Shown here one piece after another: positions 3,371-48,526 of a stretch of DNA of 64,000 nt. Made by a program: the position numbers and the translations under genes. Source of the DNA: Gemmatimonadota bacterium (GTDB lineage Bacteria; Gemmatimonadota; Gemmatimonadetes; Gemmatimonadales; Gemmatimonadaceae); NCBI GenBank assembly GCA_031127075.1, contig JARIFA010000003.1:1-64000 (forward strand), written 5' to 3'. The notes beneath the pieces were generated by a model. It did no database searches. It was not told the origin of the DNA and saw only the letters and a program-made list of their open reading frames with translations. How positions within the stretch are numbered: the first letter of the stretch is position 1; every line of letters begins with the position of its first letter.

Positions 3371-3452
3371 ACCGCCAGGGGTACTCCGCATCGCGGGGTT
3401 GAGACAGTCCCTTGGAACCTGACCCGGGTAATGCCGGCGGAGGGAGCGCGGT
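3371..3452 (+). ncRNA. TPP (thiamine pyrophosphate) riboswitch, THI element
   Basis: ACCGC-CAGGGGT...GGGTTGAGA...CCCTTGGAACCTGACCCGGGTAATGCCGGCGGAGGGA-GCGGT. Conserved CUGAGA-like and ACCUGA...GGGUAAUGCC...CGGAGGGA core, with closing P1 ACCGC/GCGGT. Confidence 0.93.
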
Positions 3453-3534
3453 GAGCGATGGGCCCGGCGTTGTCCGTGGTCGTCGCGCGCGTGCATCCCG
3501 TCGCCCAACGCCCTCCAATCTGATGGAGCTTCCG

Positions 3535-22003: not shown

Positions 22004-23458
22004 GTGCCGATGATCAGCCGCCACCGCCTCGCGCCGGACCTCGAGATCAGCCGTGTCCTGACCGGGCTCTGGCAGATGGCCGACCAGGAGCGCGAGGGGC
22101 GCCCGTTCGATCTCGAGCGCGCCGCCGACGCGATGGCACCGTACGTCGCCGCGGGGTTCACCACCTTCGATATGGCCGACCACTACGGCTCGTCGGAGGA
22201 GGTCGTCGGACGCTTCCGCACGCGGCCGGGCGCCCCGCAGACGCAGCTCTTCACCAAGTGGGTGCCCGAACCCGGCCCCCTCACCAGGGACGACGTGCGC
22301 GCCGCGGTGGACCGGGCGCGGCGCCGGATGCGCGTGGAGCGGATCGACCTGCTGCAGTTCCACGCGTGGAGCTACGCCCACCCCGCGTGGCTCGACGCGC
22401 TCGTCGCTCTCGACGAGTGTCGTCGTGACGGGCTCATCGGGCACCTCGGGCTGACCAATACCGACACCGCGCACCTGCGGCTCGTCGTGGAAAGCGGGAT
22501 CCCCATCGCGACGAATCAGGTCTGCTACTCCCTGCTCGATCAGCGCGCCGCGGGGGAGATGGCGTCGTACTGCGCCGCGAAGGGAATCGCGCTCCTCGCG
22601 TTCGGCACGCTCGCCGGCGGGTTCCTCTCCGACCGCTGGCTCGGCGCGCCCGAGCCGGACTGGGCAGCCCTCGCCACCTGGTCGCAGATGAAGTACGGAC
22701 GCTTCATCCGCGTCATCGGTGGGTGGGAGGCGCTGCAGCGGATTCTGCGCGCCGCGCGCGCCGTCGCCGACCGGCACGGTTGCTCGATTGCCAACGTCGC
22801 CTCGCGGTACATCCTCGATGCGCCCGCCGTGGGCGGCGTGATCATCGGCGCGCGGCTCGGCGAGCGCGCGCATCTCGAGGACAACACACGGCTCGATGCG
22901 CTCCGGCTGACCGACGAGGACCGCGCCGAGCTGGCGGCGGCGCTCGCGACAGTGGTCCCCGTGCCCGGCGACTGCGGTGACGAGTATCGGAAGCCCCCCT
23001 TCCTCACGGCGAGCGGCGATCTCTCGCATCACGTGGCGAGTTTCCCCGCGCCCTACGCGGTGGAGGTCGCGCCGGACGGCACGCGGCGGGCCTTCAGCGG
23101 GACGCCGTGGGAGACGTCGGCGGGCTACGCGCGCGCGGTCCGCACCGGGGACCGCATCCTCGTCTCGGGGACCACCGCCACGCACGGGAACCGCGCGATG
23201 GGCGGCCGCGATGCGTATGCCCAGGCGCACCACGTCGTCGACAAGATCGATGGCGCGGTGCAGTCGCTCGGCGGTGCGCTCGCTGATGTGGTGCGCACGC
23301 GGATCTTCGTCAGCCGGATGGAGGACTGGGAGGCGGTCGCGCGAGCGCACGGGGAGCGCTTCGGCACCATCCGTCCCGCGAACACGCTCGTGCGCGCCGA
23401 GTTGATCGGGGCGGAGTACCTGGTGGAGATCGAGGCGGAGGCCGTGGTCCGGGGCTGA
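22004..23458 (+). CDS. Aldo/keto reductase fused to C-terminal RidA/YjgF-like domain
   Basis: N-terminal AKR motifs (GFTTFDMADHYGSSEEVVGR, LLQFHAWSY, GHLGLTNTD, YSLLDQRA); from about 23000 a Rid-like domain RILVSGTTATHG...DAYAQAHHVVDKIDGAVQSLGGALADVVRTRIFVSRMEDWEAVARAHGERFG...PANTLVRAELIGAEYLVEIEAEAV. Continuous frame. Confidence 0.88.
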   Translation: MPMISRHRLAPDLEISRVLTGLWQMADQEREGRPFDLERAADAMAPYVAAGFTTFDMADHYGSSEEVVGRFRTRPGAPQTQLFTKWVPEPGPLTRDDVRAAVDRARRRMRVERIDLLQFHAWSYAHPAWLDALVALDECRRDGLIGHLGLTNTDTAHLRLVVESGIPIATNQVCYSLLDQRAAGEMASYCAAKGIALLAFGTLAGGFLSDRWLGAPEPDWAALATWSQMKYGRFIRVIGGWEALQRILRAARAVADRHGCSIANVASRYILDAPAVGGVIIGARLGERAHLEDNTRLDALRLTDEDRAELAAALATVVPVPGDCGDEYRKPPFLTASGDLSHHVASFPAPYAVEVAPDGTRRAFSGTPWETSAGYARAVRTGDRILVSGTTATHGNRAMGGRDAYAQAHHVVDKIDGAVQSLGGALADVVRTRIFVSRMEDWEAVARAHGERFGTIRPANTLVRAELIGAEYLVEIEAEAVVRG

Positions 23459-29317: not shown

Positions 29318-29346
29318 TTGACAGCATTGCTGGACAGCCGCATCGT
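29318..29346 (+). promoter_or_regulatory. Candidate promoter TTGACA-N17-CATCGT upstream of the glycan-binding lipoprotein
   Basis: Consensus -35 at 29318-29323, 17-bp spacer, weak -10; abuts the operator palindrome. Confidence 0.5.
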
Positions 29347-29366
29347 TTGTTCGGTTGTCGAACAAA
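29346..29366. promoter_or_regulatory. Palindromic operator TTTGTTC-N7-GAACAAA (copy 1)
   Basis: TTTGTTCGGTTGTCGAACAAA; same motif and spacing as 41561-41581. Confidence 0.8.
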
Positions 29367-29426
29367 GCAGGGTGTTGGCCGCCCTGCCGGCAGGTGGTGT
29401 CCGGATCCCCTCTCCTGGAGTCCCTC

Positions 29427-32400
29427 ATGCGTTCCCCCCGCCTCTCCGCCGCCCTCCTTGCGGCCGTCCTCTCCCTCTCCGCCTGCGAACGCGAGGGTGG
29501 GACCGGTCCCGCCCCGATGCCGAACGACCCGACGGTCTTCACCGATGGGTTCGGCGAGGGGGTGTCGTGGCAGGCCTTCCAGGGCTCGCTGCTGACCGCG
29601 ATGTCGATCGACAACGCGGTCAAGTACCGCGGATCGGCGTCGCTCAAGATCACGATCCCTGACGCCGGGGACCCGAACGCCGGGTATTCTGGTGGCGCGT
29701 TCGTCTCGGACGTCGCGCGCGACTTCTCCACCTACGACGTCGTGTCGTTCTGGGCCAAGGCGAGCGTCGCCGCGACCCTCAACGTCGCCGGTCTCGGCAA
29801 TGACAACACCGGGACCTCGAAGTACACCGCCGAGCGCACGGACCTCGCGTTGACGACGGCGTGGCAGAAGTACACGATTGCCATCCCGTTGGCGTCGAAG
29901 CTCACGGTGGAGAAGGGCCTCTTCTTCTTCGCCGAGGGCCCCGAGGCGGGGAAGGGGTACACGCTCTGGCTCGATGACATCCAGTTCGAGACGCTGGGCA
30001 CGCTGACCAATCCGCGGCCGGCGATTACCGGCGGGACGTATGAGCAGGAGGTCGGAGACTCTCGGACGATCGTCGGGACGACGCTCACCGTCGCGGTGGG
30101 CGGGGTCGACCAGACCGTCGCCGCGTCGTCGGGCTACTTCACCTTCAGCTCCTCCAACACCGCCGTCGCGACGGTCACGAACGGCGTGATCAGCGTCGCC
30201 GCGCCTGGCGCGGCGACCATCACCGGCAGCTTGGGCGCCGTCTCGGCCGCCGGCAGCATCGCCCTCACCGCAGCCGCCCCGCCGGCGGTCGCCGCGCCGA
30301 CCCCGTCGCGGCTCGCGGCGAACGTGATCTCGCTCTTCAGCGGCGGCTACACGAACCGGACGATCGACACCTGGTCGGCGACCTGGGACGTTGCTGACGT
30401 CGCGGATGTGACGATCGCCGGCAACGCCACGAAGAAGTACAGCAACCTGTCGTACGCGGGGATCGAGTTCACGACGGCGCCGATCGACGCGACGCAGATG
30501 ACCGGCCTCCACCTCGATCTCTGGGTGACGCAGGCCGCCGGCTTCAAGATCAAGCTCGTCGACTTCGGCGCCAATGGCGTCTTCGGCGGCGGCGATGACA
30601 AGGAGCACGAGGTCACGCTGAACAGCAGCTCGTCCCCGGCGATCACCACCGGGGCGTGGAACTCCGTCGACATCCCCTTCTCGGCGTTCACCGGCCTGAC
30701 CACCCGCGGCAAGCTCGCGCAGATGATCATCGCCGGGAGCCCGACGGCGTATCTCGACAACGTCTACTTCTACAAGATCCCGCCGCCGCCGGGCCCGACC
30801 GCTGCGGCCGCGACGCCGACGAATCCGGCCGCTGGCGTGATCTCCCTCTTCAGCAACGCGTACACGGACCGGGTGGGAACCACGTGGTCGACGGTGTGGG
30901 ACCAGGCCGACGTCGCCGACGTGCAGGTGGCCGGCGACGACGTGAAGAAGTACACGAATCTGGTCTTCGCGGGCATCGAGCCCGCATCGCCGATCGATGC
31001 CTCCGGGATGTCGACCCTGAACTTCGACCTTTGGACGCCGGACTCCATCTCCGGGACGTCGTCGTTCAAGGTCAAGCTCGTCGACTTCGGGGCCAACGGG
31101 AGCTTCGGCGGCGGGGATGACACCGAGCACGAGCTCACCTTCACCCCGACCTCCACGCCGGCGTTGACCAACGGCAGCTGGGTGCGGTTCGCGATTCCGC
31201 TGACGAACTTCACCGGGCTCACCTCGCGGGCGAAGCTCGCGCAGATGATCCTCGTGAGCACGATGCCGACGGTGTATCTCGACAACATCTTCTTCTCGGC
31301 CGATGCGCCGGCGGTGGCCGCACCGACGCCGACGAAGGCGGCGGGCGACGTCATCTCGCTCTTCAGCAACGCGTACACGAACCGCACCGTGGATACCTGG
31401 TCGGCGGCGTGGGACCAGGCGGACGTGTCCGACGTGAGCATCGCTGGCAACAGCACGAAGAAGTACTCGGGCCTCGTCTTCGCGGGGATCGAGTTCACCA
31501 CCGCGACGATCGACGCGTCGGAGATGACGCACTTCTCCTTCGACCTCTGGACCCCGGAGGCGACGGCGGCGCCGGCCGAGTTCAAGGTCAAGCTCGTCGA
31601 CTTCGGCGCGAACAATGCGTTCGGCGGCGGGGATGACAAGGAGCAGGAGCTGGTCTTCTCGGCGACGTCCACCCCGGCGCTCGAGACGGGGAGCTGGGTC
31701 ACCTTCGACATCCCGCTGAGCGCCTTCACCGGGCTGACCACCCGACGGAACCTGGCGCAGCTGATCATCGTCAGCGCGCCGAGCGCGCGGACGCTCTTCA
31801 TCGACAACATGTACTTCTATAAGGCGCCGGCGCCGTCGGGACCTCAGGTCTCCGCGGCGGCTCCGACCGGGGCAGCGGCGTCGGTCATCTCGCTCTTCTC
31901 GAACGCGTACACGAACCGGCCGAACACCACCTGGTCGACGGTGTGGGACCAGGCCGACGTCACCGACGTCGCGGTCGGGTCCGACAGCGTCAAGAAGTAC
32001 TCGAACCTCGTCTTCGCGGGGATCGAACCGGCCGCGCCGGTCAACGCCGGGGCGATGACGCACTTCAACTTCGATCTCTGGACGCCGGACGCCGTGACCG
32101 GCACCTCGACCTTCAAGCTCAAGCTCGTCGACTGGGGGGCCGGCGGCTCCTTCGGCGGCGGCGATGACACCGAGCACGAGCTGACCTTCACCACCAGCTC
32201 CTCTCCGGCGCTCGCGACGGGGACCTGGGTCCGCTTCAAGGTCCCGCTTTCGAGCTTCACGGGGATGACGGGCCAGACGAGCATCGCCCAGTTCATCATC
32301 TCGGGTTCGCTCGGGACGGTCTACCTCGACAACATCTATTTCTCGGCGGATGCGCCGGCGATCGCCGCACCGACCCCGACGTATGCCGCGGGTGACGTGA

Positions 32401-32873
32401 TCTCGCTCTTCAGCAACGCCTACACCAATCAGAACGTGAACACCTGGTCGGCGGAGTGGGATTCGGCCGACCTCGCGGACGTGCAGGTGGCCGGGAACGA
32501 CGTCAAGAAGTACTCGAACCTGGTGTTCGCCGGCATCGAGTTCACCTCGTCGACCGTCAACGCGACCGCGATGACGCACTTCTCGTTCGATCTCTGGACG
32601 CCCGAGGCGACGACGGCCGCCTCGGAGGTCAAGGTGAAGCTCGTCGACTTCGGCACGAACAACGCCTTTGGCGGCGGTGATGACAAGGAGCACGAGCTCG
32701 TCTTCTCCACCACCTCCACCCCGGCGCTCGCCGGCGGGGCGTGGGTGACCTTCAACATCCCGCTGGCGCAGTTCACCGGCCTCACGACCCGCGGCAACCT
32801 GGCCCAGCTGATCCTCGTGAGCGCCCCGAGCGCTCGCACCGTCTTCATCGACAACGTCCTGTTCCACAAGTAG
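29427..32873 (+). CDS. Secreted lipoprotein with N-terminal jelly-roll-like domain, Ig-like (Big_2) domain and five tandem glycan-binding-like modules
   Basis: Lipobox MRSPRLSAALLAAVLSLSAC; SSSNTAVATVTNGVISVAAPGAATITG; five VISLFS...DNxxF modules. Confidence 0.85.
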   Translation: MRSPRLSAALLAAVLSLSACEREGGTGPAPMPNDPTVFTDGFGEGVSWQAFQGSLLTAMSIDNAVKYRGSASLKITIPDAGDPNAGYSGGAFVSDVARDFSTYDVVSFWAKASVAATLNVAGLGNDNTGTSKYTAERTDLALTTAWQKYTIAIPLASKLTVEKGLFFFAEGPEAGKGYTLWLDDIQFETLGTLTNPRPAITGGTYEQEVGDSRTIVGTTLTVAVGGVDQTVAASSGYFTFSSSNTAVATVTNGVISVAAPGAATITGSLGAVSAAGSIALTAAAPPAVAAPTPSRLAANVISLFSGGYTNRTIDTWSATWDVADVADVTIAGNATKKYSNLSYAGIEFTTAPIDATQMTGLHLDLWVTQAAGFKIKLVDFGANGVFGGGDDKEHEVTLNSSSSPAITTGAWNSVDIPFSAFTGLTTRGKLAQMIIAGSPTAYLDNVYFYKIPPPPGPTAAAATPTNPAAGVISLFSNAYTDRVGTTWSTVWDQADVADVQVAGDDVKKYTNLVFAGIEPASPIDASGMSTLNFDLWTPDSISGTSSFKVKLVDFGANGSFGGGDDTEHELTFTPTSTPALTNGSWVRFAIPLTNFTGLTSRAKLAQMILVSTMPTVYLDNIFFSADAPAVAAPTPTKAAGDVISLFSNAYTNRTVDTWSAAWDQADVSDVSIAGNSTKKYSGLVFAGIEFTTATIDASEMTHFSFDLWTPEATAAPAEFKVKLVDFGANNAFGGGDDKEQELVFSATSTPALETGSWVTFDIPLSAFTGLTTRRNLAQLIIVSAPSARTLFIDNMYFYKAPAPSGPQVSAAAPTGAAASVISLFSNAYTNRPNTTWSTVWDQADVTDVAVGSDSVKKYSNLVFAGIEPAAPVNAGAMTHFNFDLWTPDAVTGTSTFKLKLVDWGAGGSFGGGDDTEHELTFTTSSSPALATGTWVRFKVPLSSFTGMTGQTSIAQFIISGSLGTVYLDNIYFSADAPAIAAPTPTYAAGDVISLFSNAYTNQNVNTWSAEWDSADLADVQVAGNDVKKYSNLVFAGIEFTSSTVNATAMTHFSFDLWTPEATTAASEVKVKLVDFGTNNAFGGGDDKEHELVFSTTSTPALAGGAWVTFNIPLAQFTGLTTRGNLAQLILVSAPSARTVFIDNVLFHK
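30324..32870 (+). repeat. Five in-frame tandem modules, about 171-178 aa each, in A-B-A-B-A order
   Basis: Module starts at 30324, 30837, 31350, 31884, 32397 (513, 513, 534, 513, 474 bp). A-type: DTWSAxWD/IEFTT/GGGDDKExE; B-type: TTWSTVWD/IEPA/GGGDDTEHELTF. Confidence 0.9.
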
Positions 32874-32912
32874 GCTTCAGGGCATGGCGCCCGCCGTGCC
32901 GCTGGTGAGACG

Positions 32913-34169
32913 ATGACCCGGTCTCCGGGTCCCCGGGTGGGCGCGTCGGACTTCCGTCCGGCGCGCCCACCGTCGTTGGCGGACGCCGTCCTGCGGCTTA
33001 TCTGGGACGAGGAACGCATCTCTCGGGCCGACATCGCCCGGCGGACCGGCCTCTCCCGGTCCACCGTCTCTGAAATCGTGGAGACCCTTCTCGCCACCGG
33101 CCTCGTCTCGGAGGCCGGGGTCGGGGACTCGCGTGGCGGGCGCCGCCCGATCGTCCTCGAGTTCCAGGACGCGGCCGGGGTGGTCCTCGGTGTCGACATG
33201 GGGGCGGCGCATGTCGCGGTGATCCTGACCGACCTTCGGGGACGGATCCTCGCCGCCGAGCGGACGGCGCATCCGGTGCAGGGGGATCCGGACGGGGCTC
33301 GGGCGTTCATCCGTCGCCTCGTCGAGACCTGCCTCGCCGCCGTGGGGCCGCTCTCGGCGCGTCGGCTCATCGGCGTCGGGATCGGCGTCCCCAGCCCGGT
33401 GGACGTCCGGCACCCCGATCGGCTCTCGCCGGTCGCGATGCCCGCGTGGGAGGGGCGGCACGGCCTCGACACCCTCCTCGCGAACCTCGGCGTCCCGATC
33501 CTCGTCGACAACGACGCCAACCTGGGCGCGCTCGCCGAACGCTGGTGGGGCGCGGCACAGGGGCTCGATCACTTCGCCTACATCAAGATCGCCACCGGAA
33601 TCGGGGCCGGGCACGTCATCGACGGCCGGATCCACCGCGGGGCGAGCGGCGTGGGTGGCGAGATCGGACACGTCGCGATCGACCCGCGCGGCGAAACCTG
33701 TAACTGCGGGAATCGCGGCTGCCTCACCACCTTCGTCGGGGCGCCCGCGCTGGCGGCACGGATCCAGGCGCTCCGGCCCGTCTATCCGCAGAGCCTCCTT
33801 GCTGACGGTCCGCCGACCGTCGCGCGGCTCGAGGAGGCGGCACGCGCCGACGATCCGCTCGCCCTGCAGGTGATCCACGAGGTCGCCGAGCACCTGGGCG
33901 TCGCGATCGCCGGGATGCTCAACCTCCTCAACCCGGCGGCCGTCATCCTCGGAGGGCGGATCGCCGGCCTCGGGGAGAAACTCATCGCGCCGCTGCGCGC
34001 CACGGCGCTCCGGCGCACCTTCGTGCCGGCCGCAGCCGCGACGGAGATCCGCGCCAGCACGCTCGGCTCCCACGGAATCGCCCTCGGGGCCGCGACCCTC
34101 GTCCTCGACGCCGCGTTGCGCGATCCGCGACTCTTCCGGCCCGTCGCGCGAGCACGAACCGGCGGCTGA
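32913..34169 (+). CDS. ROK family transcriptional regulator
   Basis: HTH ISRADIARRTGLSRSTVSEIVETLLATGLVSE; ROK sugar-kinase-like fold with zinc/ROK motifs VGGEIGHVAIDPRGETCNCGNRGCLTTFVG. Confidence 0.93.
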   Translation: MTRSPGPRVGASDFRPARPPSLADAVLRLIWDEERISRADIARRTGLSRSTVSEIVETLLATGLVSEAGVGDSRGGRRPIVLEFQDAAGVVLGVDMGAAHVAVILTDLRGRILAAERTAHPVQGDPDGARAFIRRLVETCLAAVGPLSARRLIGVGIGVPSPVDVRHPDRLSPVAMPAWEGRHGLDTLLANLGVPILVDNDANLGALAERWWGAAQGLDHFAYIKIATGIGAGHVIDGRIHRGASGVGGEIGHVAIDPRGETCNCGNRGCLTTFVGAPALAARIQALRPVYPQSLLADGPPTVARLEEAARADDPLALQVIHEVAEHLGVAIAGMLNLLNPAAVILGGRIAGLGEKLIAPLRATALRRTFVPAAAATEIRASTLGSHGIALGAATLVLDAALRDPRLFRPVARARTGG

Positions 34170-34172
34170 GCC

Positions 34173-35711
34173 CTAGGCCGCGGCCCGCCGCCGCTCCAGC
34201 TCGGCGCGGACCTCGTAGGCTTTCGCTTCGGTGAGCGGGTATCCCGCCATCACCCAGATGGCGACGCCCGACGCGAGGAAGGGAATCCAGACGTCAGCGA
34301 CGCGCAGGAGGTAGAGCGTCCGCGCCGACTGGGCGCCACCGAGCGCCACGTCGAACCCCGTCGCGTTGAGCACCACCCCGCCGAGCGCCAGCGCGACCGC
34401 CATCCCGACCTTCACGACCCACCAGAAGATCGAGCCGAACATCCCCTCCCGGCGCTGCCGCGTCGCGAGCTCGTCCGTGTCGACGACGTCGGCCATCATC
34501 GCCCCCATCAGGGTGAAGAGGCCGCCGAGTCCGAAGGCGAGGAAGGGCGCCGGGACGAGGAGGAGCCAGGGGCGCGCCGGGTCGTAGCAGACCCATTTGA
34601 GGGCGTAGCCGACCATCGAGAGGGCGGTGGAGACGAAGAAGGCGCGCTGCTTGCCGATCCGCGTCGCGAGCCAGGTGATCAGGGCGATGACGCCGAAGGT
34701 CGAGATGGCGCCGAGGGTGCCGGCGTAGCCGGTGTAGCGCGCGCCGAGCTCCTGGTTCCCGCCGAAGACGTAGTAAATCACCACGTACGACTGGAACGAC
34801 GAGATCATGATGAAGCCGTTGAACACGAGAAAGGTGGCGATGCAGAGCCGGAGATAGGGCCCCGTGCGCAGCGTCGCGGCGAAGCCGCGGAAGAACTCCC
34901 GGGTGTTCCGCTGGACCGCGGCCCACGCCCCCGCCGTCGCCTGTGCCGCTGGCGCCGCGGCGGTCGCCGCCGCCGTCACCATCCGTTCACGCAGGACGAT
35001 GGCGGGGATCACGCCCACCACGCAGGCCACGATCCCCACGCCGATGGCGAGTCCGCGCGCGCCGTCGGCGGGCGTGGGGAACCACGCCGTGTTCGTCATG
35101 ATCCAGAGGAACCAGGGGGAGACGAGGTAGGCGAGCTGCGCGATGAAGTTCTGCACGCCCATCAGCCGCGTGCGCTCGTGGTAGTCCGGCGTCAATTCGT
35201 AGCCGAGGGCGACCCACGGCGTCGCGAAGATCGTGTACCCGACGTAGAAGATCGTCGAGCCGATCGTGAAGTACCAGAAATACCAGAGCTCGCTCTTCCC
35301 GACGGGGAGGAGCCAGAGGGCGATGAAGGAGAGGCCGGAGAAGAGCGCGCCGATGAAGATGTATGGCCGCCGCCGGCCCCACCGTGAGCGCGTCCCGTCG
35401 GAGATGAATCCCATGATGGGATCCGTCAGCGCATCGGTGACGCGGGGGAGGGCGCTGGCGAGCCCGACCAAGGCGGGGTTCATCCCGAAGCCGAGGTTCA
35501 GGATGATGAGCATCCCGCCGATCGCGGCGGCGAGGGTGTTGTTGACGAAGCCGCCGAGGCCGTACGCCACCTTGTGCGCGAACGGGATCCGGTCGGCCTC
35601 CGGCGTCACGTGCCGCGGTGTCTCGGGCCCGGTCGACGGGCCGAGGCGACGGTGCCACGCGGAGAGAGCGACCCGGAAGAGCCCGATGCGTCGCGGCGAG
35701 GACTGGCTCAT
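34173..35711 (-). CDS. MFS transporter, GPH (glycoside-pentoside-hexuronide):cation symporter type
   Basis: About 12 TM segments; RVTDALTDPIMGFISDGTRSRWGRRRPYIFIGA motif. Start MSQSSPRR at 35711 overlaps the GH16 stop. Confidence 0.9.
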   Translation of the reverse strand: MSQSSPRRIGLFRVALSAWHRRLGPSTGPETPRHVTPEADRIPFAHKVAYGLGGFVNNTLAAAIGGMLIILNLGFGMNPALVGLASALPRVTDALTDPIMGFISDGTRSRWGRRRPYIFIGALFSGLSFIALWLLPVGKSELWYFWYFTIGSTIFYVGYTIFATPWVALGYELTPDYHERTRLMGVQNFIAQLAYLVSPWFLWIMTNTAWFPTPADGARGLAIGVGIVACVVGVIPAIVLRERMVTAAATAAAPAAQATAGAWAAVQRNTREFFRGFAATLRTGPYLRLCIATFLVFNGFIMISSFQSYVVIYYVFGGNQELGARYTGYAGTLGAISTFGVIALITWLATRIGKQRAFFVSTALSMVGYALKWVCYDPARPWLLLVPAPFLAFGLGGLFTLMGAMMADVVDTDELATRQRREGMFGSIFWWVVKVGMAVALALGGVVLNATGFDVALGGAQSARTLYLLRVADVWIPFLASGVAIWVMAGYPLTEAKAYEVRAELERRRAAA

Positions 35712-36499
35712 CGGATCTCCTGATAGACGCGGACCCAATCCACGAGCAGGGTCTGCGGGAACACGGTCGACCCATCCGGCGGACCGATGAAGTTCCCGCC
35801 CACGGCGAGATTCAGAATGATGAAGAATTCGTGGTCGAAGACCCAATCCCCGGGCTGGTCGCCCTTCGCCACGACGTGGTAGAGGGTATCGTCGAGGTAG
35901 AACCGGATGTCCCGCGGGCTCCAGTCGACGCGGTAGACGTGGAAGTCGGTGTCGAGCCGTCCGTCGAGGAGCGTGTACTTCCGTGTGACCGCCGCGCCCC
36001 CCGAGTAGCCCGGGCCGTGCAAGGACCCGTGCACGATGCTCGGCTCCTGCCCGCGATACTCCATGATGTCGATCTCGCCCGACCGCGGCCAGCCCACGGT
36101 CGGGAAGTTCGCGCCGAGCATCCAGAAGGCGGGCCAGAGCCCCTTGCCCGTCGGCATCCGCATCCGGGCCTCGAAGCGCCCGTAGCGGAACTGCTTCCGC
36201 CCGAGGGTCTTCAGACGCGCGGAGGTGTAGCCGCGATTGAGATACGATTCCTGACGCGCGGTGATGGCCAGGTGACCTTCCCCGTCGAGGGCGGAGTTCG
36301 CCCGCCGATCGGTGTCGAATTCGAGTTGCGCGTTCCCCCAGTCGGTGCCGATGTCCGCGATCCAGACCTGCGGGTCGGGTGCCGCGCCGGCCGCTCCCTC
36401 GAACTCATCCGACCAGACGAGTGAATACTCAGGCTCGGTCGCGCCGGAGCAGGCGGCGAGGAGGAGGCAGAGGCTCAGGAGGGCAGGGCGACGGCGCAC
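35708..36499 (-). CDS. GH16 family glycoside hydrolase (beta-glucanase/laminarinase-like)
   Basis: Lipobox LCLLLAACSG; GH16 catalytic motif GEIDIMEYRG; VYRVDWSPRDIRFYLDD; FFIILNLAVGGN. Confidence 0.93.
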   Translation of the reverse strand: MRRRPALLSLCLLLAACSGATEPEYSLVWSDEFEGAAGAAPDPQVWIADIGTDWGNAQLEFDTDRRANSALDGEGHLAITARQESYLNRGYTSARLKTLGRKQFRYGRFEARMRMPTGKGLWPAFWMLGANFPTVGWPRSGEIDIMEYRGQEPSIVHGSLHGPGYSGGAAVTRKYTLLDGRLDTDFHVYRVDWSPRDIRFYLDDTLYHVVAKGDQPGDWVFDHEFFIILNLAVGGNFIGPPDGSTVFPQTLLVDWVRVYQEIR

Positions 36500-36541
36500 A
36501 GGAGGGCGGGTGAGGGGAAGGGGCAGTGCGCGACGCCGCGC

Positions 36542-38362
36542 TCAGCGCGGCGTGAGGCCGTGGCCACGCGGGAACCGGACGGGCGCCCGCCCGTCAGGCG
36601 CGGGCGCCGTGGCCGGCCAGTCGAGCGGGAGCACACCGGTGAACGGGTGGGCGCCGAACAGGACGTCGGCGACCCCGGCGCCCTCCGAACCCGGCAACCA
36701 GCCCGCGATGAACGCCTGTGACGCGGCCAGTTCGCGGTCCACCAGCAGCGGACGGCCGGAGAGGAGGATCGTGACCACCGGGATCCCCTTGGCCCGGATC
36801 GCCTCGATCGTCGCGAGGTCCTCCGGATGCCGCGTCGCAAGCTCCAACGTGGTGCCGTACGGCTCGAGGTTCACGGTGAAGAGCCCACCGGGAAGAGGCG
36901 GAGTGATCCGCCCCCCCGGACGAATGTCCCCCATCCCCTCGGCGTACGGCATCTCGCCGATCACTACCACCGCCACATCGTGCTGCGTCGGGTCGGCCGC
37001 GGACCCATCCATGCTGAGCGTCGCCGCCGGCGCCACGGCACGGATGCCCTGCCAGATCGACGTCCCGCCGACGATCGCATCGTTCCCGTGCGTCCCCTGC
37101 CACGCGGCGCTGAAGCCGCCGCACTGATGGCTGATGTCGTCGGCGTGCTTGCCCGCGACGAGGATGCGCTGTCCAGCGCGCAGCGGCAGCACGTCGCCCG
37201 CGTGTGCGAGCAGCACCTGCGATCGACGCACCGCCTCGCGCGCCACGGCACGATGCGCGGCGCTCCCGAACGTCTCGCTCTCCGCCCACGGGCGCTCCGC
37301 CGGCCGGACGCGGTCGAGGAGGCCGGCCCGCACCTTCACGCGGAGGATCCGCCGCACCGCATCGTCGATGCGGGCCATCGGGATCGCGCCCGACGCGACG
37401 CCGGCGGCGAGGCCGGTGAGCCGCCGACGCCAATCGGCGGCGCACATCAGCATGTCGACGCCCGCGTTCACCGCGAGCACGATCGCCTGGTCGAGATCGG
37501 CCGCCACCTGATCGACGCCGTCCCAGTCGGAGACGACGAGGCCGCTGAAGCCGAGCCGCTCCTTGAGCACCCCGGTCAGCAGCGCACCGTGCGCGTGGCA
37601 CTTCGTCCCGTTGACGCTGTTGAAGGACACCATCACCGTCTGCACCCCGGCGTGCAGTGCGGCACGGTACGGTGGGAGATGCGTGTGTTCGAGGGCCTCG
37701 GGGGAGAGCGCCGCATCCCCCTGGTCGATCCCCTCCGTCGTCGCGCCATCGCCGATCCAGTGCTTGGCGCAGGCGAGGACGCCATCGTCATCGAGGGTGC
37801 CCTGCATCCCACGCACGAACGCCTCGGCGTACGCGGCGACGAGCGCGGGATCGTCGGAGAAACTCTCGTAGGTGCGGCCCCACTGTACGTTTTGCACGAC
37901 GGCGAGCGTCGGGGCGAAGTTCCAGTCGAGTCCCGTGGCGAGAACCTCGCGCGCGCAGATGCGCGCAAGCCGCTCGATGAGCTCCGGATCCCGGGCCGCC
38001 CCGAGGCCGATGTGATGCGGGAAGATCGTCGCGCCGCGCACGTTGGCGTGGCCGTGCACCGCATCGACCGCGTACAGGAGCGGGATCGCGGCGCGGTCGT
38101 CCGTCGGGTCGGTCGAGGCGGCCCAGAGGGCGTCGTTGAGCGCGACCCAGTCGGCCGGGGTGTTGGCGCCGGGCACCGAGCCCGACCCGCTCAAGACGGC
38201 GCCGAGGTGATACGCGCGGACGTCTTCGGGGGTCGTCGATGCGCGCTCGCTCATCATCATCTGCCCGAGCTTCTCCTCGAGCCGCAGGCGGGCGAGGATC
38301 GCCTCGACGCGCTCCTCGACCGCCGCGGGGGCGGTCGGGCGGGGGAGGGTGGGCGCGCTCAC
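36542..38362 (-). CDS. GH3 family beta-glucosidase
   Basis: KLGQMMMSERAST, CAKHWIGDGATTEGIDQGDAAL, LGFSGLVVSDWDGVDQ (nucleophile Asp). GTG start 38362 overlaps the upstream stop. Confidence 0.93.
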   Translation of the reverse strand: MSAPTLPRPTAPAAVEERVEAILARLRLEEKLGQMMMSERASTTPEDVRAYHLGAVLSGSGSVPGANTPADWVALNDALWAASTDPTDDRAAIPLLYAVDAVHGHANVRGATIFPHHIGLGAARDPELIERLARICAREVLATGLDWNFAPTLAVVQNVQWGRTYESFSDDPALVAAYAEAFVRGMQGTLDDDGVLACAKHWIGDGATTEGIDQGDAALSPEALEHTHLPPYRAALHAGVQTVMVSFNSVNGTKCHAHGALLTGVLKERLGFSGLVVSDWDGVDQVAADLDQAIVLAVNAGVDMLMCAADWRRRLTGLAAGVASGAIPMARIDDAVRRILRVKVRAGLLDRVRPAERPWAESETFGSAAHRAVAREAVRRSQVLLAHAGDVLPLRAGQRILVAGKHADDISHQCGGFSAAWQGTHGNDAIVGGTSIWQGIRAVAPAATLSMDGSAADPTQHDVAVVVIGEMPYAEGMGDIRPGGRITPPLPGGLFTVNLEPYGTTLELATRHPEDLATIEAIRAKGIPVVTILLSGRPLLVDRELAASQAFIAGWLPGSEGAGVADVLFGAHPFTGVLPLDWPATAPAPDGRAPVRFPRGHGLTPR

Positions 38363-41300
38363 CAGGCCACCGTCAGGTAGCTGCGGAGCTCCCACTCGCG
38401 CCCGAGCGGGAAGCCGGGGGCACCTGCGTCGCACACGGTGTCGCCGGCGGCATTCGTCGTGGTCGTCGGGCAGTAGCGCGGGGAGTAGCGATCGAGGGTC
38501 CGCCAGGTGCCGCGGATCCCGAACTTCGTCTCGGGGAGGTCGAACCACTGCGGCTTGCCGAAGACGTAGGCGACGTCGGCCATCAGCTGCGTCGGGAAGG
38601 TGAGGTTGAAGTCGCGATGGTAGTCGTAGGGCCCGAAGTCGTTGAACTTGGCGGCACCGATGATCTTGAGCGGGCCCGAGACGAGCCGCAGGTCGCCACC
38701 GGCGCGCGTGACCAGCCGCTGGCTGTCGCCATTCGGTTCGGCCTTCCCGCCGTACGCGTTCACGATGAAGCGGAGGTCGCGGCCCACGCGGGCGATGGTG
38801 CGCGCCCGGATCTCCCAGAGGTCGCGCCCCGGCGTCGAGGCGGGGAAGGCGAATGGGGTGCGGCCGTCGGCGAGGATGCCGATCGCCGCATCCATCCCCG
38901 TCGGCATGTGCTTGTACGTGTAGGCGACGCTCGCCGCGAAGCGTGCGTCCTCGCGGACGTCATTGTCCCACTGATACATCCAGGTCGCGGGCGTCGGATC
39001 CCACGTCAGCAAGAGCTCGCCCGCCGCCATCTCCCGGTTCGCCCGCACGACAAACGGGTCACGCAGTACGTTCCGCAGGCGCGCCGGGGCGGGGGCGCCA
39101 CGCGGGATCGGCCCCACGAGCGGCTGCTGCACGAGAATGTTCGGGGCGATCTGCAGGTTGCCGATGGAATAGGTCAGCCCGGTCATCGCGTTCCACTGAT
39201 TGCTCATCCCCGTGTCGCGGAGCCACCACCCGGTGAAGGTCTGCACCGCGGTGGGCCCGCCATCGGCCACGAGCCCCATCAGGGCGCCCTGCGCATACCA
39301 GTTCACGCGACCGCGAGAGAACGACAGCTTCGCCTTCGCGCCGAACGCATCGCTCGGCCGGATCTCGTCGCCGAGCACCTGGTAGCTCCCGGGTGCGCCC
39401 TCGACGCGCTGGAAGGTCTCGCCGACGCGCGTGGACCCCGCCCAGATGCCACCGACGTCGACGCCCACGCCGAGCAGGGTGGTGGCGAGGTGCAGGGAGA
39501 GGCGCCGCGTGGGCGGCAGCGGGATCGCGAGAGAGCTCGTCGTCGCGCCGGCCGGGATGCGCGCGAGGTCCTCGTGGTAGAGGCCCGTGACATCGATGCC
39601 GGCGATGCGCCGCCGGTACTTGAAGAGCGCGGCGGGGTTGGCGCCCCACCAGAGCTCTGGGCCGATCGCGACCTTCAGGCCCTCGAGGGCGCGCTTCCCG
39701 GCGATCTCCATGCCGAGCGGTGCCACCGCATTGTAGGTGTCGATGTTCCGGCCGTAGTTCGCTTCGCGATAGACGCCGAAGAAGTCGCCCTCGTAGCCCC
39801 AGTGGTAGTGGCCCGAGCGATTGAACGCCTCGAGACGGAAGTTGCGGGCGTCCCAGGTGACGTGCGCGCGGTACACCTTGAGCCGCTCCAGGCCATCGGT
39901 CGCGACGCCGCCGCCGGAGGTCAGCGCGAGCGTCCGTGAGCGGCCGCGGTTCTCGTAGAAGATCTCGTCAATCGGGTTTTCAGGGACGTGGCCGAGCACG
40001 TTCACCGCGAGGGTGGCCTGCAGGCGCTCCGAGGGCTTGGCCTCGAGCTCGACGAAGTACGACTCCATCCGGTCAAAGCCCCGGAAGGCGGGGCGGTCGG
40101 TGGGGCTCGGTGTGTCGGCGCTGGGTGTCCGGATCGCGGAGCCGCCCGTCGCGAAGTTCGTGAGCTCGAGCCGCATCCCCTTCAGGCGGAGGGGGGCCGA
40201 TTCCGCGCCGGCGCCGGCGCGCTCGGCACGCGCCTGCGCGGTGAGCGCGCCGGGGTCGATGGCCGCGAACTGTGCCCGCAGCGAGGCGCGCGTCGTCCCC
40301 GGCGCGTAGGGGTCGAGGGCGTGGATGCGCTGCAGCGCATAGTAGGCGGCGCGCGGGTACAGGTCGAAGAGCCCGCGGGTATCCGGTGGCCCCTTGGCCA
40401 CGATGCCCCACCACTCTTCATTCATGTTGTTCTCGCCGCGCACGAAATCGTGCGGGTAGGCGTCCGCGGGCCACGAGGCATTGACGTCGTGGATGTCGAG
40501 TCGCGATTCCTGGCCGAACTTCCACCAGCCGTCGCTCCACTGGAAGGTGAAGCCGCCGATCGCATTCCCGGGACGTCCCTGACCGGCGGCGTGCCCGTAG
40601 ATCTCCTCCCACTGCGAGATGAGATAGCGCGCCTGCGCCTCCTGATCTTCGCGTCCCTCCCGCTCGTTCCACGCGTCCGCGCCGAACTCGGTGAAGAGGA
40701 CCGGGATCCCGAGCTTCGCCTCGACCACGTCGAAGAAGTCGCGGAAGGAGGCGCCGCGATAGACGTTCGATCCGAGGATGTCGATCCCCTTCGCCTCCTG
40801 CGCGATGAGATCGATGTACTGCAGGTCGCCGTTGGCGTAGGCCACCGGATGCGCCGGGTCCGCCGCCTTCACGGCGCGCGCGACTTCGCCGACGAGCGAG
40901 TAGAGATAGCGCGCCCGGGCCGCGTCCCGCTCACCGACCGGGAGCGCCTCGGTCTCGGCTGAGCGCCAGCTCAGGCCGTAGTTGTTCTCGTTGCCGAGGA
41001 GCCAGAGGAGGAGGCCCGGCGTCCCGCGGAATTCCTGGACCAGCGCCATCACCTCGGCGGTGATCGCCGCCCGGACGCGTGGGTTGGAGTAGTCGGTCTG
41101 CGGCTGGTAAACGCCGTCGATCGTGACGCCGTAGCGTCCCAGCGCGTGGTTCAGGACCGTGTGGATCCCGTACGTCTCATAGATGTACTTGATCCAGCGC
41201 GGCGGGATGCCGGCGTAGACGCGGATCGCGTTGCCCCCCATCCGCCGGACGAGGGACATCTCCCGCTCGAGCGCCTCGATGATGAAGGCATCCGGCTGGG

Positions 41301-41517
41301 TCCAGAGCGCGTACGCGTAGTTCTCCCCAATCGGGATGTAGTCCCAGTTGACGCCGTTGATCATCAGGGGGCGTCCCCCGACGGTGAGCCGGAGTCCGGT
41401 CGAGTCACGGACGACGCGCACTGGCGCGTCCGGGGACTGCGCCGACGACGGCCGGGGGATCGCCCCCACCGCCAGACTGCCGACCAACAGGAACCGCCGC
41501 GCCAGATGCGACCACAT
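38359..41517 (-). CDS. Clan GH-A glycosidase fused to putative C-terminal outer-membrane beta-barrel
   Basis: Signal MWSHLARRFLLVGSLAVGAIPRPSSA; GVNWDYIPIGENY, GGNAIRVYAGIPP, LWLLGNENN (acid/base) and VLFTEFGADAWNE (nucleophile); from about 40200 downward, alternating amphipathic aromatic strands ending WELRSYLTVAW-stop. Confidence 0.8.
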   Translation of the reverse strand: MWSHLARRFLLVGSLAVGAIPRPSSAQSPDAPVRVVRDSTGLRLTVGGRPLMINGVNWDYIPIGENYAYALWTQPDAFIIEALEREMSLVRRMGGNAIRVYAGIPPRWIKYIYETYGIHTVLNHALGRYGVTIDGVYQPQTDYSNPRVRAAITAEVMALVQEFRGTPGLLLWLLGNENNYGLSWRSAETEALPVGERDAARARYLYSLVGEVARAVKAADPAHPVAYANGDLQYIDLIAQEAKGIDILGSNVYRGASFRDFFDVVEAKLGIPVLFTEFGADAWNEREGREDQEAQARYLISQWEEIYGHAAGQGRPGNAIGGFTFQWSDGWWKFGQESRLDIHDVNASWPADAYPHDFVRGENNMNEEWWGIVAKGPPDTRGLFDLYPRAAYYALQRIHALDPYAPGTTRASLRAQFAAIDPGALTAQARAERAGAGAESAPLRLKGMRLELTNFATGGSAIRTPSADTPSPTDRPAFRGFDRMESYFVELEAKPSERLQATLAVNVLGHVPENPIDEIFYENRGRSRTLALTSGGGVATDGLERLKVYRAHVTWDARNFRLEAFNRSGHYHWGYEGDFFGVYREANYGRNIDTYNAVAPLGMEIAGKRALEGLKVAIGPELWWGANPAALFKYRRRIAGIDVTGLYHEDLARIPAGATTSSLAIPLPPTRRLSLHLATTLLGVGVDVGGIWAGSTRVGETFQRVEGAPGSYQVLGDEIRPSDAFGAKAKLSFSRGRVNWYAQGALMGLVADGGPTAVQTFTGWWLRDTGMSNQWNAMTGLTYSIGNLQIAPNILVQQPLVGPIPRGAPAPARLRNVLRDPFVVRANREMAAGELLLTWDPTPATWMYQWDNDVREDARFAASVAYTYKHMPTGMDAAIGILADGRTPFAFPASTPGRDLWEIRARTIARVGRDLRFIVNAYGGKAEPNGDSQRLVTRAGGDLRLVSGPLKIIGAAKFNDFGPYDYHRDFNLTFPTQLMADVAYVFGKPQWFDLPETKFGIRGTWRTLDRYSPRYCPTTTTNAAGDTVCDAGAPGFPLGREWELRSYLTVAW

Positions 41518-41560
41518 GGGGGGACCTCCGCGCGCACGCGGGGGAGGGGAGATGGCAGGC

Positions 41561-41581
41561 TTTGTTCGGTAAGGGAACAAA
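41561..41581. promoter_or_regulatory. Palindromic operator TTTGTTC-N7-GAACAAA (copy 2)
   Basis: TTTGTTCGGTAAGGGAACAAA, 43 bp upstream of the GH-OMP start. Minus-strand TTGACG -35 at 41608-41603. Confidence 0.8.
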
Positions 41582-41655
41582 GTGCAACCGGGCCTCGGAG
41601 CCCGTCAAGATGACGCGGGGACCATCCGCCCGTTCCGCGTCGCCGTGCCATCGGG

Positions 41656-41701: not shown

Positions 41702-42487
41702 ATGCGGCTCACTGCGTACCGCGTCGCGGTCGTCACCCTCCTCGTCGGCTCGACGGCGTGCCGGGCGCCCGGCGTCGCCACGGGACCGCGTCCGCTGCCC
41801 GCCCCGGCCGCCCCCGCACGCGGTGTCGGAACCGTCGACGCGACCGTACCAACCGAGGTCGCCGCCAGCGACACTCTCACCGGCTTCCCTGAGACCCCGG
41901 TGGTCCCGACCGTCGGCCCCTCCAGCGCCGCCGCGATCGCAGACGCCGTCGCCGATTCCATCCGGCATCCGTACACGACCGCCGACGTTGCGTTCATGTC
42001 GGGGATGATCGGCCATCACGCGCAGGCCATCGCGATGGCGCGTCTCGCCCCGGAGCGGGCGGGGACGGAGGCCATCCGCACCCTCGCCGCCCGCATCATC
42101 AATGCGCAGGTCGACGAGATCCGCACGATGCAGAGCTGGCTCGCCGACCGCCGACAGCCGGTGCCCCCCGCCAATCCGAACGGGATGACGCACGAGATGG
42201 GGGGGATGACCCACACGATGTTGATGCCGGGGATGCTCACGCCCGCGCAGGTGGCGGAGCTCGCCCGCAGTCGCGGCGCCGACTTCGACGAGCGGTTCCT
42301 CCGCTTCATGATCCAACATCACCGCGGCGCCACCGCGATGGTGCGGCAACTCTTCTCCGCCCCCGGGGCCGGCGAGGACGAGCTGGTGTTCAAGTTCGCC
42401 TCCGACGTCAATGTGGATCAGTCCACGGAGATCGCGCGGATGGAGCAGATGCTGGTCGCCGTCGTCCTGCAGCGCGGCCTCCCGTGA
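41702..42487 (+). CDS. DUF305 domain-containing protein
   Basis: VAFMSGMIGHHAQAIAMARLA...FLRFMIQHHRGATAMVRQLF, paired MxxHHxxA motifs. Confidence 0.9.
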   Translation: MRLTAYRVAVVTLLVGSTACRAPGVATGPRPLPAPAAPARGVGTVDATVPTEVAASDTLTGFPETPVVPTVGPSSAAAIADAVADSIRHPYTTADVAFMSGMIGHHAQAIAMARLAPERAGTEAIRTLAARIINAQVDEIRTMQSWLADRRQPVPPANPNGMTHEMGGMTHTMLMPGMLTPAQVAELARSRGADFDERFLRFMIQHHRGATAMVRQLFSAPGAGEDELVFKFASDVNVDQSTEIARMEQMLVAVVLQRGLP

Positions 42488-45835: not shown

Positions 45836-48526
45836 TCACGGCGCCAACAGGAACCGCAGCGGCGTCTCCACCCGCTGCCGCCAAGCGCGCTCCGTGTGGT
45901 CCGCGCCCTCGAATAGCCGCGTCTGGAGTCGCGGAGCGGTGTACCCCTTCGCGCGGAAGACCGCCTCGGCCTTCGTCTGCAATTCGCCGTACGTGGCGTC
46001 CAATGACAGCGTCCCCCGGTCGAGATAGACGCGATGCGTCGCGGGGTCGGGCAGCTCTTGCCCGAGGTAGTCGATCAGCGCCCCTTCGCCGGCGGGCCAA
46101 TGCGTCGACAGCGCCGCCGCCGCGCCGAACACCTCGGGATACTCGGTCAGTCCGTAGAGGGAGATCACGCCCCCCATGCTCGATCCCATCAGCATCGTGT
46201 CGTCGCGGCCTGGGCGAGTCCGGAAGGTGCGGTCGATGTACGGCTTCAGTTCCATCACAAGGAACCGAAGATAGGCGTCGCCCAGCGGTCGGCCGGTGAT
46301 CGGTGGTAGCTCCGAGCCCATACTGAAAGCGCTGTCGGTCGCCGGAATCGCCTTGGTGGCCATGTACTCCTGCTGGCGACGCGACGAACTCCAGACGGCG
46401 ACCACGATCGCCGGCCGCACCTGACGCTCCGCGATGAGGCGGCCCAACGATTCATCCACGGCCCAGTCGACCCCGCTGGAGGCGGCGGCGGGGTCGAAGA
46501 CGTTCTGACCATCCTGAAGGTAGATGACCGGGTAGCGCGCGGCGGTGTCGCGCCCGTAGCCGGGTGGAAGCCAGACCTCCACATGACGTGACGAGACGTT
46601 CCGCGATGGGAATGCGCGAATCACCCGCCGGTCCCCGCTGACGCCGAGCGCTGGGCCCGGCACCTCACGGGCCGTGATGGGGAAGACGCACCCGGCCCGG
46701 CGCGGCAGCGCCACTACCACGGCATCGCCCTGAGGCTCCGGAGTGGCGCAGATCCCGAGGAGGTCCGCACCGGCGAGGCCGAGCGGGATCCGTAGCGTCG
46801 CGACGGCGGTGTCGTTGTTGATCGCCACCAGGGTGTTGCCGCGACGGTAGACCCACGCCTGTTCGGTCAGGAGGAGGGTCTCCGTTGCCTCGCCACGGAG
46901 GTCGGCCCGGTCGCCCCGGAGCTTCGTCAGGGCCTGCAGATGCGAAAAGAGCTGGTCCTCGTCCGGCGTGCGCCCGGTCGGTTCGAAGGCGTTCCGCGGA
47001 TCATCCGCCCAGCCGCCCGGGAAGTCACGTCGATTGTCCGGTTCGCTGCCGCCGGGCATCCCGATCTCATCGCCGTAGTAGATCAGCGGGGTGCCTCGAG
47101 TCGTCATCAGGACGGTCCACGCGAGCTTCAGCCCGTCGAGGGTGGCCCGGGGATCGCCGGTGAAGCGTGGGACGTTGTGGAGGCCGAGGAAGGTGACCAG
47201 TGCCGCCGGGTCTTTATAGAGGCGGTCGCGGGCGAGCATTTGCGCCACGCCACGGATCGAGCCGCCTTCCTGGAAGGCCGACCGAAGCGAATAGAACAGC
47301 GGGAAATCGAAGAGGGCGTCCACCCCGGTGTCGACCCCGTCGAACTGGGGCACGCCCCCCTGGAAGAAGGCGGTCATCGTCGGGTCGCCGTCGACAACTT
47401 CGCCGACCACCTTGAGCGTCGGGAATTCTCGCTTGATCGCCTTCGTCCACTCGCGCCAGAAGGTGCGCGGCACGTAGGGCCACGTGTCCTGTCGGATGCC
47501 GTCGAGGCCGGTCACCCCGACCCACCAGAGGGTATTCTGAATCAGGTACTGCCGGACCTCTGGATCGTCTTGGTTGAGGTCAGGCAGGACGTCGATGAGC
47601 CAGCCGTCAAGCGTCCCCTCTCGCATCCGCGCCGAGGCGTTCGGGTCGGTGAGGGTCCAGGTCTGCCACACGTTGGCGAGATGGCGCTCGGCGGTGCCGT
47701 GGAACCAGGTCGGCGTCGGCGGGTCGGCGACCCACGGGTGGTACGGCCCCGTGTGATTCGCGACCATGTCCATCACGACTTTGAGCCCCTTCGCGTGGGC
47801 GGAATCGACGAGCGCGCGGTAGCCGCCGAGCGAGCCGAGATGTTCGTCGACCTCGTAGAAATCGACGGCGCCGTAACCGTGGTAGTCGGTGATCGGCTGT
47901 CCGTCGTACGTCTCCTTGCGATTGAGCCCGTCGTGGCTGTCGTAGACGGGGTTCATCCAGAGCGTGGTGACCCCGAGGTCCTTGAGGTAGCCGAGGTGTT
48001 GCTGGACGCCGGCGAGATCGCCGCCGTGGTAGTAACGGCCCTTCGAACGATCGAGGAGGCCGGCGCCACCGGGGTCGTCATTCGACGGGTCGCCGTTCGC
48101 GAAGCGGTCGGGCATCAGCAGGTACATCACGTCGTTCCGGTCGAAGCCGCGGAAGCGGCCGGTCCGGACGAGCGGGGGCAGGACCTCGAACGTCGCGCTG
48201 TCGCGGCCCGCGCTCGTCACGACGGCGAGCGCGTACCGACCGGGCTTCACCGTCGGGCCACCCGGGAGGGTGACGTCCGTGAAGAGGGTGGTCCCCGTCT
48301 CGCTGATCTTCACGTTGGTGCACCGCAGGGCGCCGCACTCGAGCCGGGCTCCGCCGAAATGTTTCCCGCGCATCATCACCCGCACGGGATTGACCGTGGA
48401 GCCCTGCCACCAACTCGGCGGGTCGGTCTGCAGGACCTCGGGCGCCTGGGCGAGGAGCGGCGCCCCGACACTCAGGAGTGCCGAGAGGGCAAGCAGGCGA
48501 CGGAGCAGAGCCTGCGGAACGGTCAT
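45836..48526 (-). CDS. Secreted GH13 alpha-amylase family enzyme fused to C-terminal alpha/beta-hydrolase (esterase D/Fes-like) domain
   Basis: Cyclomaltodextrinase-type N-domain; GH13 MDMVANHTGPYHPW, DGIRQDTWPYV, VVGEVVDGDP; C-terminal VIYLQDGQNVFDP...TMLMGSSMGGVISLYG (GxSxGG). Confidence 0.88.
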   Translation of the reverse strand: MTVPQALLRRLLALSALLSVGAPLLAQAPEVLQTDPPSWWQGSTVNPVRVMMRGKHFGGARLECGALRCTNVKISETGTTLFTDVTLPGGPTVKPGRYALAVVTSAGRDSATFEVLPPLVRTGRFRGFDRNDVMYLLMPDRFANGDPSNDDPGGAGLLDRSKGRYYHGGDLAGVQQHLGYLKDLGVTTLWMNPVYDSHDGLNRKETYDGQPITDYHGYGAVDFYEVDEHLGSLGGYRALVDSAHAKGLKVVMDMVANHTGPYHPWVADPPTPTWFHGTAERHLANVWQTWTLTDPNASARMREGTLDGWLIDVLPDLNQDDPEVRQYLIQNTLWWVGVTGLDGIRQDTWPYVPRTFWREWTKAIKREFPTLKVVGEVVDGDPTMTAFFQGGVPQFDGVDTGVDALFDFPLFYSLRSAFQEGGSIRGVAQMLARDRLYKDPAALVTFLGLHNVPRFTGDPRATLDGLKLAWTVLMTTRGTPLIYYGDEIGMPGGSEPDNRRDFPGGWADDPRNAFEPTGRTPDEDQLFSHLQALTKLRGDRADLRGEATETLLLTEQAWVYRRGNTLVAINNDTAVATLRIPLGLAGADLLGICATPEPQGDAVVVALPRRAGCVFPITAREVPGPALGVSGDRRVIRAFPSRNVSSRHVEVWLPPGYGRDTAARYPVIYLQDGQNVFDPAAASSGVDWAVDESLGRLIAERQVRPAIVVAVWSSSRRQQEYMATKAIPATDSAFSMGSELPPITGRPLGDAYLRFLVMELKPYIDRTFRTRPGRDDTMLMGSSMGGVISLYGLTEYPEVFGAAAALSTHWPAGEGALIDYLGQELPDPATHRVYLDRGTLSLDATYGELQTKAEAVFRAKGYTAPRLQTRLFEGADHTERAWRQRVETPLRFLLAP

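Follow-up and report, generated by a model that had tools for sequence, protein, structure and literature searches.

A probable laminarin-type beta-glucan locus of Gemmatimonadota without SusC/SusD and with a candidate enzyme-barrel fusion for the outer-membrane step

How does a glucan utilization locus bring oligosaccharides across the outer membrane if it holds neither SusC nor SusD? The question is raised by a six-gene cluster in the first 64 kb (64,000 nt; the stretch analysed, hereafter the window) of the 78-kb contig C33 (JARIFA010000003.1), which belongs to a 2.2-Mb Gemmatimonadota genome. One of its genes encodes a protein of 1052 aa, here called GHOMP, with a signal peptide, a TIM-barrel glycosidase, a linker and a predicted outer-membrane beta-barrel. 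Our analysis makes it fairly probable that the cluster is a dedicated beta-1,3-glucan (laminarin-type) locus without a SusC/SusD importer, in which this enzyme-barrel fusion provides a TonB-independent outer-membrane step.

Gene starts and overlaps were taken directly from the nucleotide sequence, and the genes were confirmed by profile search. On the forward strand, a lipoprotein resembling surface glycan-binding protein B (SGBP-B; 29427-32873, ATG at 29427; Pfam SGBP_B_XBD, a profile of the SGBP-B xyloglucan-binding domain, 9.5e-10, and CBM_4_9) is followed by a ROK-family repressor with a winged helix-turn-helix (HTH) and a ROK domain (32913-34169, ATG at 32913; PF00480 1.3e-55). Convergent with this pair, an operon on the reverse strand runs from GHOMP (38359-41517, weak PF02836 match), whose ATG at 41517 is preceded by a GGAGGT ribosome site, through a glycoside hydrolase family 3 (GH3) exo-beta-glucosidase of the barley ExoI/ExoP type (36542-38362, GTG at 38362; PF00933 2e-78) and a GH16 laminarinase-type endo-beta-glucanase lipoprotein (35708-36499, GTG at 36499; PF00722 4.3e-25) to a GPH (MelB-type) cation symporter (34173-35711, ATG at 35711; PF13347 7.7e-55, TIGR00792). 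A sequence-only reading of the window had named these six genes, all of which the profile searches confirmed, and had placed 4-bp stop/start overlaps at two junctions. Both are exact: GTGA at 38359-38362 joins the GHOMP stop to the GH3 start, and ATGA at 35708-35711 joins the GH16 stop to the symporter start. The same reading had called the locus SusC/D-less, which was borne out, as profile searches found no SusC and no SusD match in the window or elsewhere on C33.

The SusC/SusD pair of a Sus-type polysaccharide utilization locus (PUL) is thus missing; a surface glycan-binding lipoprotein, an endo-acting surface enzyme, inner-membrane import and an exo-enzyme are united in one cluster, which a shared operator would co-regulate. 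Elsewhere in the genome we found two strong SusC genes, on contigs C90 (beside a SusD match) and C12, so that it is the locus, not the genome, that is SusC/D-less.

Both operons are preceded by the palindrome TTTGTTC-N7-GAACAAA (TTTGTTCG-N5-CGAACAAA), suggesting that they are regulated together. Operator 1 (TTTGTTCGGTTGTCGAACAAA, 29346-29366), an exact palindrome, lies 60 nt upstream of the lipoprotein ATG; operator 2 (TTTGTTCGGTAAGGGAACAAA, 41561-41581) matches the palindrome 44 nt upstream of the GHOMP ATG. Reading the sequence also revealed a -35-like box ahead of each, TTGACA 28 nt before operator 1 (29318-29323, forward strand) and TTGACG 27 nt before operator 2 (41603-41608, reverse strand). 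The sequence-only reading had ended the locus at 29318 and 41608, the positions of these two TTGAC boxes, without mentioning the shared operator. Scans for promoters and terminators found none above chance level and no full consensus promoter. For the operator itself, two matches were found in the window against 0.01 expected, and the whole genome held only these two sites even at two mismatches (reversed control, 0). In ten relatives (three of them single-contig), nine had two sites and one had three, in every case at the GHOMP locus of the genome itself; for G249, whose locus is cut by a contig end, the second site was on another contig. At up to two mismatches, 26 of the 33 ROK-bearing loci had the operator, as did 11 of 53 loci without a detected ROK gene, most of which belong to Gemmatimonadota or break off at a contig end; the shuffled control matched in 1 of 1720. 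The HTH and ROK domains, with palindromic operators near the target promoters, are those of a ROK repressor, and the ROK protein is presumably the reader of both operators. Since the sites are confined to the GHOMP locus, it presumably controls this locus alone.

GHOMP and its company extend well beyond this genome. Strong matches were obtained for 44 of the 395 Gemmatimonadota genomes searched, and genome_contigs yielded over 500 stretches with the gene. The 80 of these stretches that were kept were 52-96% identical and came from Gemmatimonadota, Bacteroidota, Ignavibacteria, Calditrichota, Krumholzibacteriota, Eisenbacteria and others; the closest relative among the 80 kept (VHBO01000036, GHOMP 96% identical) is probably a lake metagenome-assembled genome, judging from its isolate name. 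Neighbours were counted in 90 non-redundant GHOMP loci from Gemmatimonadota, Bacteroidota and other phyla. This neighbourhood comparison showed that GHOMP keeps an SGBP-like lipoprotein in 71 loci, GH16 in 67, a GPH symporter in 52 and ROK in 34, accompanied by GH149 (29), ExoI-type GH3 (28), a second GH3 (25), a Y_Y_Y sensor-regulator (20), GH17 (26 and 14), GH30 (10 and 7) and GH1 (13). Gene order varies between groups of loci, so the shared content does not merely reflect close relatedness, and the cassette is a conserved unit, not a peculiarity of Gemmatimonadota. SusC was found in only 1 of the 90 loci, using a profile that detects true SusC at 1e-200 and in organisms with many SusC genes elsewhere; the cassette is also SusC/D-less in many Bacteroidota.

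The Flavobacteriaceae show what GHOMP stands in place of. Among 199 of their genomes, 44 had a full-length or partial GHOMP, and 20 had only a relative of the TIM domain, about 340 aa long and often a lipoprotein. The loci with this TIM-only gene have the order of a classical laminarin PUL, sensor-SusC-SusD-SGBP/PKD-GH16-GH149-GH17-TIM-GH30-MFS-GH17 (MFS, major facilitator superfamily). Full-length GHOMP loci read sensor-GHOMP-SGBP-GH16-(PKD)-GH149-GH17-GH30-MFS-GH17, with no TIM-only gene and, in 15 of 20, no SusC in the cassette. From the two orders, GHOMP occupies the SusC and SusD slot, and the free enzyme is gone. SusC was present in 12 of 15 extended TIM-only loci against 5 of 20 GHOMP loci (Fisher p 0.002, kinship between genomes being ignored). 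A 20-kb view had suggested that TIM-only loci lack SusC as well, which the extended stretches showed to be an effect of truncation. The exchange is not absolute, as the five remaining loci carry GHOMP and SusC-SusD together (SusD confirmed by Pfam in three).

These five loci, and the presence in the Gemmatimonadota genome itself of other TonB receptors besides its two strong SusC genes, could mean that the glucan is imported by SusC/D, or by a different TonB-dependent receptor, encoded at another place in the genome, and that GHOMP is an extra enzyme. We consider this quite improbable, given that 89 of 90 loci are without SusC and that no operator was found near any other gene in the genome or the ten relatives. 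The sequence-only reading had itself named SusC/D homologues lying just outside the locus and regulated with it as what would overturn it; with none on C33 and no operator elsewhere in the genomes searched, this candidate was rejected. Likewise, no SusC/D or TonB receptor under the shared operator was found in the genome or the ten relatives; the TonB-dependent receptor at 3412-5574, which is not a SusC and lies 24 kb from the locus, has no operator.

What, then, is GHOMP? A 62-member alignment had a mean column identity of 59%, and the full-length AlphaFold2 model reached a predicted local distance difference test score (pLDDT) of 81 and a predicted template modelling score (pTM) of 0.73. The TIM domain (residues 30-405; 40303-41430, reverse strand) is GH158-like and has the features of clan GH-A, a TIM barrel with an N-E acid/base and an E nucleophile. 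N176, E177 and E277 are invariant, and by family analogy N176-E177 would provide the acid/base and E277 the nucleophile. A profile of 64 GHOMP relatives had its best PDB match in the BuGH158 endo-laminarinase (2.7e-7), ahead of beta-galactosidases, although the match is remote, covering residues 128-323 only. Foldseek likewise placed GH158 on top, while in VIA-align GH2, GH5, GH157 and GH158 were tied at Z about 26; the fold alone is therefore not decisive among GH families. Assignment to GH2 was rejected, as GH2_C scored 22.1 bits against a cut-off of 21 and GH158 came first in both the profile and Foldseek searches.

The C-terminal beta-barrel (residues 443-1051; 38365-40191, reverse strand) is predicted to have 24 strands. 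In the full-length model and in an AlphaFold2 model of the barrel alone (pLDDT 84.3, pTM 0.82) these are long; most even-numbered strands are followed by a very short turn and the odd-numbered ones by a long loop, so that both ends of the barrel would be periplasmic. Structural searches returned outer-membrane barrels only (TonB receptors, AlgE, OprD/Occ porins, maltoporin), and the full-length match (residues 5-617) was to the 24-strand ushers FimD and PapC (Z about 13). The usher family PF00577 had no match in 64 GHOMP members, and the likeness is one of barrel size and shape only. Members of the family matched no Pfam barrel family and no PDB sequence, and by its sequence the barrel appears to belong to no known family. 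GHOMP matched no Plug, TonB_dep_Rec or SusC profile and has no plug domain, and so does not classify as a TonB-dependent receptor. A search for stand-alone barrels in 200 Gemmatimonadota genomes led to their rejection, as each match was either part of a full-length fusion or located at the end of a contig.

The barrel could also be a mere anchor for the enzyme, the products of GH16 and the TIM domain being small enough for ordinary porins, with no dedicated importer. Membrane-anchored enzymes with beta-barrels do exist, as in autotransporter esterases, and a GPH symporter and a cytosolic GH3 are suited to small oligosaccharides. We nevertheless regard such an anchor as rather unlikely. The autotransporter (type V) Pfam profile had no match in GHOMP, whose 24 predicted strands are far above the 12 of an autotransporter barrel, and the GHOMP gene sits in the SusC-SusD slot. 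Moreover, the barrel and its long loops are conserved like the catalytic domain across several phyla (mean 0.70 for the loops against 0.71 for the TIM domain), which is unusual for a mere anchor.

On which side of the membrane the TIM domain acts is suggested by its free relatives. Acidic residues after the lipoprotein cysteine are a surface-export signal in Bacteroidota; the TIM-only lipoproteins lack them, whereas the SGBP and GH16 lipoproteins tend to have them (small numbers, and a heuristic). Together with the modelled barrel topology, these lipoprotein starts suggest that the TIM domain of GHOMP most likely faces the periplasm.

The other proteins of the cluster bear on the substrate. 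GH16 matched the beta-1,3-glucanase of PDB entry 2hyk (3.8e-80) and has the lipobox LAAC and the catalytic motif GEIDIME. GH3 matched the exo-1,3/1,4-beta-glucanase of PDB entry 3rrx (4.2e-142) and starts at GTG without a signal peptide; it is therefore cytosolic. The translated lipoprotein has the lipobox LSAC and an acidic start, CERE, followed by an N-terminal CBM4/9-like domain and repeated glycan-binding-like modules of about 165 aa, with chance-level matches only among PDB sequences. The symporter scored 186.6 bits for PF13347 (cut-off 27) and 158.7 bits for TIGR00792, under the strict cut-off of 231 for that model. The GH149 of 29 related loci (NF058639, 1784 bits against a cut-off of 1150; PDB 6hq6) is a beta-1,3-glucan phosphorylase. 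Taken together, the company of GH158, GH16_3, GH149, GH17 and GH30 favours beta-1,3-glucan as the substrate. A mixed-linkage beta-1,3/1,4-glucan (lichenan, plant beta-glucan) or another beta-glucan instead of laminarin would agree with the acceptance of both linkages by GH16 of this type and by ExoP/ExoI-type GH3 (PDB names; BuGH16, PMC7157763) and with the lack of GH17, GH30 and GH149 in the window. We think such a target unlikely, because the TIM domain has its nearest relatives among the GH158 endo-laminarinases and the cytosolic step in the 29 related loci is a beta-1,3-specific phosphorylase.

We tentatively propose, as a possibility short of a probable one, that GHOMP is a new outer-membrane glycan importer, an enzyme-gated, TonB-independent and plug-less 24-strand channel whose glycosidase, placed at the inner mouth, draws oligosaccharides inward as it cleaves them, and that it takes the place of SusC/D in the beta-1,3-glucan loci of Gemmatimonadota, Bacteroidota and phyla related to them. 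In the reading that we hold to be fairly probable, the ROK protein would repress both operons at the shared palindrome until relieved by an inducing sugar. At the surface, the SGBP lipoprotein would hold the glucan and the GH16 lipoprotein would cut it; the oligosaccharides would enter through the GHOMP barrel and be cut further at the channel mouth by the fused GH158-like domain, most likely on the periplasmic side. The GPH symporter would then take short oligosaccharides into the cytosol, where the ExoI-type GH3 would yield glucose and, in relatives, GH149 would yield glucose-1-phosphate. Several points weigh against the reading of this locus as a dedicated beta-1,3-glucan system served by GHOMP. 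The barrel could be an anchor only, or be obstructed by its own loops or by the TIM domain, and the full-length model, at its pTM, does not fix how the two domains lie relative to each other. The genome is 81.5% complete, GHOMP and SusC-SusD stand together in 5 of the 20 Flavobacteriaceae loci, the window is without GH149, GH17 and GH30, and GH16 and GH3 of these types act also on mixed-linkage glucan.

Some further features were observed in and around these loci. The GH16-symporter pair (34173-36499) is inverted here and in the 96%-identical relative L032; in nearly all other Gemmatimonadota it has the same direction as the lipoprotein-ROK operon. In Longimicrobiales-type loci, an SGBP-like glycan-binding domain is inserted between transmembrane segments of the GPH symporter, as in L048 (4486-6552, one 688-aa open frame with MFS_2 split in two stretches) and also in L047, L049, L059, L066, L068, L069 and L092. 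Genes of an oligopeptide (Opp)-type ATP-binding cassette (ABC) transporter lie beside GHOMP in some loci, mostly Eisenbacteria-type; in three of these (L090, 14035-16335; L074, 14996-15985; L085, 4025-5008) no GPH symporter was detected. In the window, a DUF305 protein (41702-42487) lies directly beyond the GHOMP promoter and is divergently transcribed. Farther away are an 896-aa fusion of an alpha-amylase domain to an esterase domain (45836-48526) and an aldo-keto reductase fused to a RidA-like (L-PSP) domain (22004-23458).

Laminarin is among the largest carbon pools that bacteria turn over. To mark glycan import in Bacteroidota, PUL detection, SusC/D trees and models of 'selfish uptake' all rely on SusC/D. 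If our proposal holds, a widespread cassette with the same function but no SusC/D would escape notice or be classed as no more than a carbohydrate-active enzyme (CAZyme) cluster, and GHOMP would add a new membrane-protein architecture. The two arrangements in the same gene order, SusC/D with a free enzyme and a barrel-fused enzyme, would also be a natural experiment, in cultured Flavobacterium species, on what SusC/D adds; F. degerlachei DSM 15718 and F. petrolei each have a GHOMP locus.

The closest known system is the 1,3GUL of Bacteroides uniformis, which acts on beta(1,3)-glucan with a regulator, SGBP, GH16_3, GH158 and GH3 (PMC7157763). The GHOMP locus would likewise be a dedicated, co-regulated cluster for beta-1,3-glucan, and it has a regulator, SGBP-B, GH16_3, a GH158-like domain and GH3 as the corresponding parts. 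The 1,3GUL has a SusC TonB-dependent transporter, SusD (SGBP-A) and a hybrid two-component regulator (PMC7157763), whereas the GHOMP locus has a ROK regulator and no SusC/D, joins its GH158-like domain to a 24-strand barrel and adds a GPH symporter. The sequence-only description, a functional analogue of the laminarin PULs of Bacteroidota made from other parts, is thus supported and sharpened, the parts matching those of 1,3GUL minus SusC/D. With the laminarin PULs of marine Flavobacteriia (variant B and variant 1; PMC6298971, PMC10108472) and Formosa (PMC6246565), our locus has GH16_3 and an MFS transporter in common, and its GHOMP relatives also share GH149, GH17 and GH30; those PULs use SusC/D, while in GHOMP loci GHOMP holds the slot and the free enzyme is missing. 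By its position between GH149 and GH30, the unclassified 'GH0' of variant 1 PULs (PMC10108472) fits the TIM-only homologue. A laminarin cluster of Muricauda lutaonensis, with a LuxR-type sensor, a 'GH2 beta-glycosidase', GH16, GH149 or GH3, GH30_1, MFS and GH17 (PMC13188888), is probably a Flavobacteriaceae version of the GHOMP cassette; the section consulted describes no outer-membrane barrel on the 'GH2' protein and does not discuss the missing SusC/D. Gemmatimonadota PULs with SusC/D (PMC10469786) and clusters without SusC/D, known as 'CAZyme clusters' (PMC10108472), have been reported before. In the open-access full-text literature we found no description of the barrel, of its fusion to a glycosidase in a SusC/D-less locus or of the SusC/D exchange, and the enzyme-barrel arrangement, conserved across several phyla, has apparently not been described previously. 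FbGH17B-MFS of Formosa (PMC6246565) likewise combines a transporter with a beta-1,3-glucan hydrolase in one fusion, but belongs to the inner membrane and to unrelated families; GHOMP would be its outer-membrane counterpart.

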